Part shown: positions 22,841 through 50,406 of the stretch, piece by piece | Layout of the letters: the number at the start of each line of letters is the position of its first letter | Position numbering within the stretch: the first letter of the stretch is position 1 | NCBI RefSeq assembly: GCF_026004055.1 | Contig: NZ_BPIJ01000001.1 | Span: 1,116,001 to 1,180,000 of the forward strand | Direction of reading: 5' to 3' | Source: Meiothermus sp. | GTDB lineage: Bacteria > Deinococcota > Deinococci > Deinococcales > Thermaceae | DNA length: 64,000 nt | Made by a program: the position numbers and the translations under genes | Notes under the pieces: generated by a model | What the model was told of the DNA's origin: nothing | What the model saw: only the letters and a program-made list of their open reading frames with translations | Database searches by the model: none

Positions 22841-23178
22841 TGGTCTGGTAAAAAAATACGCAGTATGGGGTTTAGCCTTCAGAACGCGCCGTGTCTCGTA
22901 AACCTGGGCCTTCGGTGCCTTGCCTGTACGGTCATGCAAAAAGCACCCCACCCCGCTTCGCCCCTTCCCTCCCCTACTGCGTAGGGGAGGCCAGGTGGGG
23001 TGGCTGACCTGGCCCTTCACCCAGCGGATTGGGGGCCTTGCCTGATACCCTCCCCCACCCTCCCTACGCGGTAGGGGGGGCGTTTTTAGGCCATCTCGAG
23101 GGCCGAAGTGGGATGGAATCTCTACAACGATGTATTCGGGGTGCGGTACATAACTTCGGAAATTTAGTTACCAGACCA
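22841..23178. mobile_element. MITE-like repeat, family 3, with target duplication
   Basis: 338 bases ending in perfect inverted repeats TGGTCTGGTAA (22841-22851) and TTACCAGACCA (23168-23178). CTTAG flanks it on both sides as a direct repeat (22836-22840 and 23179-23183). It has no coding capacity, and internal inverted repeats of the CCTCCCCTAC/GTAGGGGAGG kind are present. A second, shorter member lies at 49574-49771. The element fills most of the 22793-23215 gap. Confidence 0.82.
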
Positions 23179-27196: not shown

Positions 27197-27475
27197 GTGC
27201 TCCTCACAGACGTGGCCGCCCACGAAAACGAGAATGCATCTGAGCCCCTCGCGTTTCCCACACACACTGCCCTCACGGCGGCCGGTGTTTTACCCCCACC
27301 CGCACACACCGCTGTTGGGGGTATTCGTGGAAACCGCTCCAGACGCAGGTTATGCACCCAAGCGTGGGCCGGGCCCGGCCCACGGGGGCTTGGGTTTCGA
27401 GTTTCCAGGCGGCCTCTGTTCTGTCCGGGACAAAGCTTTCTTGAAGTCGGATGGTTCAAAATACGTGAAGAGCAC
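27197..27475. mobile_element. MITE-like repeat, family 4, copy 1
   Basis: 279 bases with ends GTGCTCCTCACA and CGTGAAGAGCAC, imperfect relatives of the ends of the copy at 39768-40041. Shared blocks include CAGACGTGGCCGCCCACG after the left end and a perfect 20-bp palindrome GTGGGCCGGGCCCGGCCCAC near 27365. Frames across it are not protein-like. The flank to 27548 resembles half of a family 2 repeat (ATCGCGGTT on the minus strand). Together they fill the gap after the LysW-like gene. Confidence 0.75.
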
Positions 27476-30688: not shown

Positions 30689-30721
30689 CCCCTAAGGCTA
30701 GGCCCGCCGGGTCAGACTAGA

Positions 30722-30808
30722 GCGGTTCCCACGAATAGTCCCTACAGCGTTTTTTGCTGTGGGGACTACAATACGAGCCACCGCGTGGATCGTATTGGTG
30801 GGAACCGC
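30722..30808. mobile_element. MITE-like repeat, family 2, copy 1
   Basis: 87 bases with ends GCGGTTCCCAC and GTGGGAACCGC. Inside are GTCCCTACAGC/GCTGTGGGGAC and CAATACGA/TCGTATTG stems, so the whole unit can fold into a long hairpin. Other members: 40665-40724 and, interrupted, 49509-49795. Confidence 0.75.
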
Positions 30809-30815
30809 GATAGGG

Positions 30816-40660: not shown

Positions 40661-40664
40661 AAGA

Positions 40665-40724
40665 GCGGTTCCCACGAATGGACTCCAATACGAGCCACCG
40701 CGTGGTCGTATGGGTGGGAACCGC
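40665..40724. mobile_element. MITE-like repeat, family 2, copy 2 (short)
   Basis: 60 bases with ends GCGGTTCCCACGAAT and GTGGGAACCGC and the CGAGCCACCGCGTGG core. The GTCCCTACAGC stem of copy 1 is missing. Confidence 0.65.
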
Positions 40725-40799
40725 AATGAGGGTGGTTTCCACAGGTACCGGTACGGTGGGTTTTGCCGTGCCGGATATATGGTGCCGCACGCGATGAGG

Positions 40800-48541: not shown

Positions 48542-49501
48542 ATGGTGTTTATCTGGCCCTGGGCCCTGGGTTTGTTGCTCTGGATACCCCTGCTCGTCTG
48601 GCTGTACCGCCGGAGCCTGCGCCCGCCTGCCGAAGCGGTGGTGCTGCACCCGGATGTGGCGATGCTGGCGCAAGCCTCGAGGCGAGCCCAACACTGGCGG
48701 CAGCACCTCCCGGCAGGGCTCTATTTGCTGGCGCTGGTAGTGGCGGTTTTGGCCCTGGCCCGCCCCACCCTTCCGGTCTTGCAGGCCGACCCCCGCGCGG
48801 CGGTGGTGCTGGCGGTGGACATCAGCCGCTCGATGCAGGCCACCGATGTGCGCCCCAACCGCTTTGAGGCGGCCAGGGCCGCACTGCGAACCTTCATACG
48901 CGAGTTGCCAGCGGGAATGCGCGTAGCCCTGGTCACCTTTTCCCGCGATGCCCAACTGGTAGTACCCCTCACCACCGACCGGGGGCGCTTGTTGGAAGCG
49001 GTAGACTTCCTGGACTTGAACCTGGGCACCGCCATTGGCGATGCCATTCTGGAGAGCATTACGGCCTTGCCTCCCCTGTCCGAAAGAGCCGAGGCCCCCG
49101 ACCCCAAGAGTCTGGCCACCATCATTCTGCTCACCGATGGCCGCAGCCTGGCCGGGGTAGACCCGGTAGAAGCCGCCCAGGAAGCCGCCCGTTTGCAGAT
49201 TCGGGTGCATGCCATCGGCATTGGCCGCACTTCCGACGGCCCGGTGCCGGGGCTGCCCGAATCCTATGCGCTGGCCGCACAGTTCGACGAAGAGGCGCTC
49301 AAAGAGATTGCCCGGGTGGGGGACGGCCAGTATTTCTTCGTGGACTCGGCGAGCAAACTCAAAGAAGCCTACCGCAACCTGACCCGACAGATGACGTGGC
49401 GTATCCGTCGGGATGAAGCCACTGCCTACCTGACCCTGCTGGCCGGGACGTTGCTGATGTTGAGCCTAGGGATTGCCCAGTTGCGGCGCCGGGTAGTGTA
49501 G
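48542..49501 (+). CDS. VWA-domain membrane protein
   Basis: 319 residues with BatA-like N-terminal helices, an A domain with intact DISRS near residue 97, a conserved TDGRS loop near residue 198 and a C-terminal helix. It starts on the base after the stop of the previous gene. The three VWA genes look like tandem duplicates that diverged. A cluster of nested repeats follows directly. Confidence 0.9.
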   Translation: MVFIWPWALGLLLWIPLLVWLYRRSLRPPAEAVVLHPDVAMLAQASRRAQHWRQHLPAGLYLLALVVAVLALARPTLPVLQADPRAAVVLAVDISRSMQATDVRPNRFEAARAALRTFIRELPAGMRVALVTFSRDAQLVVPLTTDRGRLLEAVDFLDLNLGTAIGDAILESITALPPLSERAEAPDPKSLATIILLTDGRSLAGVDPVEAAQEAARLQIRVHAIGIGRTSDGPVPGLPESYALAAQFDEEALKEIARVGDGQYFFVDSASKLKEAYRNLTRQMTWRIRRDEATAYLTLLAGTLLMLSLGIAQLRRRVV

Positions 49502-49573
49502 CCTCATCGCGGTTCCACCCATACGACCACGCGGTGGCTCGTAATGTAGTCCCTACAGCAAAAACCGCTGTAG

Positions 49574-49771
49574 TGGCCTGGTAACAAAGTATGGGACGCC
49601 GACCTTCTCCCGTCATTGCGAGCATCCGCAGGATGCGAAGCAATCCAGAATCTCTGCCCCGGCCAGCCTACAGGCTATCTGGATTGCTTCGTCGGCGGGG
49701 GCCTCCTCGCAATGACAAGGGGCTCACGTTTGGATTTGTAAGGGCAAAGTGACGTAAATCTTACCAGACCA
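49574..49771. mobile_element. MITE-like repeat, family 3, copy 2, inserted into a family 2 repeat
   Basis: 198 bases with ends TGGCCTGGTAA and TTACCAGACCA, flanked by GTAG on both sides (49570-49573 and 49772-49775) as target duplication. It contains a third repeat at 49612-49716. Confidence 0.78.
49612..49716. repeat. GTCATTGCGAG inverted-repeat unit nested in family 3
   Basis: 105 bases with perfect ends GTCATTGCGAG and CTCGCAATGAC and inner GAAGCAATCCAG/CTGGATTGCTTC arms. Units with these ends are a widespread bacterial repeat type, known to me from many genomes. Confidence 0.75.
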
Positions 49772-49797
49772 GTAGCGACTATTCCCGGGAACCGCTC

Positions 49798-50406
49798 TCA
49801 GGCCTCGGCAGAGCTGCCCGATAGAGAACCCTGACGCATCAGGGTTTGGGCAAGCTCGAGCCGCGCTACCAGCGAAGGAGCCTCCAGCAGGGCTTGCCGA
49901 TCCAGGGCCGGAACCCGCAGGTTCACACACAAAAACGAAGCCTGGTATAAAGGGTCGTCGGGCAGGTTAGCAAGGGCCTCTTCCAGGGCCTGCGGATCGG
50001 CCACCCCGGCCACATAGCCCCTAAAAGCCTCCATCGCATCCCAGGCGGCCACGATCTCCTCGCTGCGGGCGGAGCGCTCGAGCGGAAAGGGAATATCCAA
50101 AGTGGTCTGGTATAGGTTCTGCTCGAAAACCCCCACCCCTTCCACACGGCAGCGCTCCCCCCCTCGGCACACGATGTTGAAGGTTCCATCGGGGTTTTCC
50201 GAAGCGGCCAGCAAATCCACATACCCCCCTACCTCCCGGATACCCGCTTCGGTGGCCAGGGTAATCACAAAACGGCGCTGGTCTTCGCTTTGGGCCAGCA
50301 AATCCCGCACCATCTGCTTGTAGCGCTCCTCAAAAATGTAGAGCGGAATGAGCAATCCGGGAAACACCACGGTCTCGGGCAGGGGGAACAGGGGAAGGCG
50401 CTTCAT
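49798..50406 (-). CDS. LON substrate-binding domain protein
   Basis: 202 residues from ATG 50406: MKRLPLFPLPETVVFPGLLIPLYIFEERYKQMV is the typical beginning of the Lon N-terminal (PUA-like) domain, which continues to about residue 120, followed by a helical tail. No AAA+ or protease part exists, so it is a stand-alone LON domain protein, perhaps an adaptor. The much longer open frame upstream (to 50904) is antisense to ggt and not used. It is divergent from ggt. Confidence 0.88.
   Translation of the reverse strand: MKRLPLFPLPETVVFPGLLIPLYIFEERYKQMVRDLLAQSEDQRRFVITLATEAGIREVGGYVDLLAASENPDGTFNIVCRGGERCRVEGVGVFEQNLYQTTLDIPFPLERSARSEEIVAAWDAMEAFRGYVAGVADPQALEEALANLPDDPLYQASFLCVNLRVPALDRQALLEAPSLVARLELAQTLMRQGSLSGSSAEA

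Follow-up and report, generated by a model that had tools for sequence, protein, structure and literature searches.

The nest of repeats at positions 49507–49797 of the window analysed here, a 64,000-nucleotide stretch (G000:C1:1116001–1180000) of the 3.18-Mb genome of Meiothermus sp., is real and far beyond chance, and is best explained by two successive insertions, first of an outer palindromic element and then of a 198-bp MITE that brought its palindromic core with it (probability about 0.88). The block is bordered by a gene that ends at 49501 (+ strand) and by a convergent one whose end is at 49798 (− strand). A preliminary description of this DNA had reported three inverted-repeat pairs lying one inside another, with GTAG on either side of the middle element, and both the pairs and the GTAG copies were found at the coordinates given there (Table 1). 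A second occurrence of the whole 287-bp block as a single unit was looked for in the genome and was not found, the block occurring once, and a 341-bp query over the site returned 49 matching pieces.

Table 1. Positions of the nested elements and of the uninterrupted outer element in the window.
Feature	Positions	Strand	Basis
TCA duplication, left of outer element	49504–49506		Sequence; 24 of the 39 copies of the family have matching 2–3-bp flanks
Outer palindromic element (GAGCGGTTCC family), first part	49507–49573	−	Reads GAGCGGTTCC...GGAACCGCGA on − strand
GTAG, left target-duplication copy of middle element	49570–49573		Sequence
Middle element, 198-bp non-autonomous IS630-type MITE, ends TGGCCTGGTAA / TTACCAGACCA	49574–49771	+	At least about 40 copies as a unit; ends match IS630-type elements in the L177, L182 and G001 loci
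Inner core, GTCATTGCGAG...CTCGCAATGAC palindrome, constant part of middle element	49612–49716	+	Identical boundaries in other shell (G006, G015); no empty shell; z −5.7
Stem of core	49636–49691	+	Perfect 14-nt arms, 49636–49649 and 49678–49691
GTAG, right target-duplication copy of middle element	49772–49775		Sequence
Outer palindromic element, rest	49776–49797	−	Joined with 49507–49573, aligns end to end with 30720–30810
TCA duplication, right of outer element	49798–49800		Stop codon (TGA on − strand) of downstream gene
Uninterrupted outer element, 91 bp, TA duplication	30720–30810	+	Alignment with restored outer element

The Outer Palindromic Family

The outer element had been placed at 49509–49795; its location held, while its extent proved slightly greater, as TC at 49507–49508 and 49796–49797 belongs to it, and TCA flanks the element so extended on both sides. 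At least 40 copies of this family are present in the host, with further copies in the relatives G002, G003, G006 and G011, and they have the ends GAGCGGTTCC...GGAACCGCGA in common and are mostly 91 bp long. Among 39 copies, flanking duplications of 2 bp were seen in 14 and of 3 bp in 10, so that inverted ends are combined with target duplication in 24 of the 39 and the family qualifies as a MITE. Duplication of CA was demonstrated against the empty site AATCCAGAATC. An intact copy is predicted to fold as a three-way structure (z −10.6 against shuffles).

Uninterrupted counterparts had been proposed as a check on the nesting, and for the outer element one lies within the window itself, at 30720–30810. 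Removal of the middle element together with one GTAG (49574–49775) leaves an 89-bp element that agrees with this intact copy at 82 of 91 positions (about 90% identity), confirming that insertion of the middle element interrupted the outer one and duplicated GTAG.

Two further members of the family were seen in the window, at 27249–27339 and 40663–40726. The latter is a 64-bp form lacking one hairpin, and the outer family is therefore itself modular. Members of the outer family frequently lie next to or across stop codons, as at 49798–49800 in the window and at six other loci (L216, L219, L226, L238, L240 and L372); a crude ORF test placed a stop codon −6 to 60 bp away on one or both sides in 17 of 29 copies, and a duplicated TA or TGA followed by the end of the element can supply such a codon. 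At another host locus (L037, G000:C1 at about 249.8 kb), a truncated middle element is joined to an outer element at a CACC common to both, apparently through illegitimate recombination.

The Middle Element Is a 198-bp MITE

The middle element carries IS630-type ends (TGGTCTGGTAA), and its end TAGTGGTCTGGTAA gave 330 genome matches with at most one mismatch against 6 for the reversed control. At 198 bp it is too short for a transposase and encodes no protein, yet it is multicopy: the element and its core are found together, as a unit, at about 40 genomic loci or more. Duplications of 4 bp flank 17 of 50 isolated copies and duplications of 5 bp another 8, compared with about 4 and about 1 in shuffles. 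The other half of these copies lack an exact duplication, as expected for old copies. The interpretation of GTAG as a target duplication was thus borne out, the 4–5-bp duplications of the family lying well above shuffles. IS630-type elements usually duplicate TA, which places these 4–5-bp duplications among the least expected features of the family. The 4-bp duplications seen (CTAG, GTAG, CTAT, TTAG and CTAA) centre on TA, while those of 5 bp include CTTAG, CTAAA and CTGAG. The presence of GTAG, CTAT, TTAG and CTAA on both sides of copies, together with the shuffle test, points to duplications of 4–5 bp rather than of TA only with the outer bases being part of the element. The ends on contig 1 seemed to favour one strand, but this bias was dismissed because the match list omits known minus-strand ends.

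The TGGTCTGG ends are also those of a sibling MITE of 338 bp with many copies in the genome, one of which occupies 22841–23178 of the window, with CTTAG on both flanks. In an exact-pattern scan of named genomes, matches were obtained in an uncultured Meiothermus contig (CALFDH010000039.1, whose sequence is that of G015:C39) and in one Fonsibacter contig, the latter with a single end only, which is roughly the chance level for 19 bases in that collection. A literature search found nothing on MITEs of Meiothermus.

A Probable Partner Transposase in Congeners

Identification of a transposase-bearing element with matching ends had likewise been proposed, and such elements were found in the relatives G008, G006 and G001. 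IS630-type elements in the L177, L182 and G001 loci have the ends TGGTCTGGTAAC / GTTACCAGAGCA in common with the middle element. The example in G008 (L177:1518–2722) has these ends and a length of about 1.2 kb; its IS630-type transposase (DDE_3, 81 bits, E 9e-23; HTH_32, 50 bits) is divided between separate frames, which may reflect programmed frameshifting or decay. A transposase protein 87% identical adjoins matching ends in G006, and G001 contains repeated contig-end copies of the IS630-type element with such ends. A search of the host genome by DDE_3 and by one protein found no intact transposase with the ends of the middle element. Since the ends of MITE and IS match, the middle element probably owes its movement to an IS630-type transposase acting in trans.

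The only leftover of the IS630-type element in the host is a 213-bp deletion derivative (L184, G000:C1 at about 337.3 kb) that retains both ends and the last 60 transposase codons, a possible intermediate in MITE formation. Three host IS copies with a weak DDE_3 match (L091–L093) were considered as the partner and rejected for want of TGGTCTGG ends. They are 1107 bp long and 100% identical, and were therefore probably active recently in the host; their ends, GAGGTGACACC, as read in L091, are also unlike those of the outer family.

The Core: Constant in the Middle Element and Present in a Second Shell

In this nest the inner unit belongs to the middle element as a constant component. Nearly all host copies of the 198-bp element have it at the same position. 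A query made from the joined flanks, run against the host and 20 relatives, matched half-shells only and gave no spanning match, so that no shell lacking the core came to light. Apart from truncated copies, none of 30 sampled core matches in the host was free-standing. Given the lack of an empty shell and the recurrence of middle element and core as one unit, the core came to the site with the middle element, and the nest therefore records two events, not three. The relative order read from the nesting accordingly stands for outer and middle elements and falls for the inner unit, which does not represent a separate third arrival; nor does the nesting prove that the GTCATTGCGAG unit moved as a discrete piece, as middle and inner parts recur together.

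That the inner unit is a discrete module was nevertheless borne out by other loci, where a second shell, differing in its ends, encloses the same core with the same boundaries. When G006 and G015 were searched with the 202-bp element, essentially only positions 41–145 matched, which correspond to the core, and the shell around it there has the ends TACACAGTCGTATAG...TACGACGCTGTA and duplications of CTTAG or CTAAA type. The left end of this second shell also precedes another IS630-type transposase in G006 (39% identical). The second shell, with core, is also present in the host (L398), and no empty version of it came to light. In turn, a related GTCATTCCGAG core lies between ends of the first kind in G006, G003, G004, G015 and at host locus L033. 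The occurrence of one core in two shells is among the least expected features of the system. One host locus (L395, G000:C3 at about 336410–336645) is a chimera in which the left half of the first shell and the right half of the second are joined via the common core, which suggests recombination between shells.

The sequence GTCATTGCGAG had 169 genome matches against 31 for a control, and the predicted fold of the inner unit far surpasses those of its shuffles. Core half-units bearing GTCATTGCGAG were found in at least 120 IMG/VR stretches. On many viral-labelled contigs (L245–L364) they take the form GTCATTGCGAG...GAAGCAATCC with short spacers, most often, for example, CGAAGC or CGCAGC. No plasmid match for the core was found, and a literature search gave no relevant mention of its sequence.

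Further Nests in the Genome

Insertion of members of one family into those of another is a recurrent event. At L047/L048 (G000:C1, about 483.8–484.2 kb), the 338-bp MITE lies inside the core of a 198-bp MITE, at CTAG, and the unsplit counterparts, which read GGCTAGCTGCG, provide a clear empty site, making this a second two-step nest. Elements of the GAGCGGAC type, 66–92 bp long, split cores with duplication of CA (L056, L078 and L208), and the corresponding empty site was seen in many copies.

Discussion

In the order of events that we favour, an outer element of about 91 bp (ends GAGCGG/CGCGA) first inserted between the convergent genes at the end of the downstream gene, duplicating TCA, which on the other strand is the TGA stop codon of that gene. 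Later, the 198-bp MITE entered this element at a GTAG site and duplicated it, probably moved in trans by the IS630-type transposase of an element with the same ends. The GTCATTGCGAG palindrome was carried in with it as the long-established core of the MITE family; by origin it is a module of its own, which became joined to no fewer than two IS630-type shells, perhaps through recombination inside the common core sequence. Points against this account are the 4–5-bp length of the duplications where TA is usual, the half of the isolated copies in which none is exact, and the negative outcome of the host search for an intact transposase by DDE_3 and one protein.

Three independent arrivals, with the GTCATTGCGAG unit entering last, into a middle element that was there before it, would accord with the discreteness of the core elsewhere and with the later entry of other elements into such cores, namely the GAGCGGAC elements and the 338-bp MITE described above. 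Against this, the core is found identically placed in about 40 or more copies, the host and 20 relatives showed no empty shell and no duplication was seen flanking the core, making a third arrival highly improbable. Slighter still is the chance that the block constitutes a single structured RNA or terminator element, retained for its function and composed of immobile repeats. Although the strong predicted folds and the position between convergent genes would suit such a role, the whole block is unique in the genome, its layers occur apart from one another elsewhere, with target duplications and with empty sites, and no Rfam family matched over it.

Rather than by recombination, the core could have entered its shells in an ancestor by its own transposition, single-strand or REP-like, through an enzyme not yet recognised. 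The constancy of its boundaries in two different shells, the half-units in the IMG/VR stretches and the related GTCATTCCGAG core filling shells of the first kind all argue for this route, but a Y1 (RAYT-type) transposase (PF01797) had no match in the host, the sampled host matches included none that was free-standing, and the L395 chimera joins half-shells through the core as recombination would. Transposition of the core by itself is therefore conceivable but rather doubtful. With similar reserve, we suggest that the GTCATTGCGAG and GTCATTCCGAG palindromes might be interchangeable mobile cores that are taken up into MITEs served by different transposases and spread on borrowed ends; if true, this would help explain the many palindrome locations without an obvious enzyme of their own.

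From this block two small mobile families can be cleanly dated relative to each other, one of them is tied to a likely transposase in sister species, and a single palindromic core is seen inside two differently ended MITE shells within one genus. It also opens the question of how widespread bacterial palindromes without a recognised transposase spread.

Nesting of small MITEs is already known from other bacteria, and the Meiothermus block is a new example, in which intact copies are available for comparison with the outer repeat as well as with the inserted unit. Mutually nested MITEs likewise make up the BOX/RUP/SPRITE clusters of Streptococcus pneumoniae, but the Meiothermus nest consists of other sequences in another phylum, its pre-insertion state is explicit and one of its layers is a core common to two MITE families. 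The middle element resembles the pneumococcal RUP, partner of IS630-Spn1, a short protein-less repeat with IS630-family-like ends and more than 100 copies, thought to be mobilised in trans (PMC2229807). RUP is 107 bp long, targets TA and has its IS in the same genome, whereas the Meiothermus elements measure 198 and 338 bp, have 4–5-bp duplications and find their partner IS in congeners only, and the MITE contains a separate palindromic core. ISTth6, an IS630-family element of the related genus Thermus, is listed with a length of 1000–1400 bp and 2-bp duplications (PMC6352166, table 2), in contrast to the 4–5 bp of the Meiothermus MITEs. The core itself resembles BIME/REP sequences as a paired palindromic intergenic unit able to form hairpins; it differs from them in that no Y1 (RAYT-type) transposase was found in its host, and in that its copies reside in IS630-type shells.
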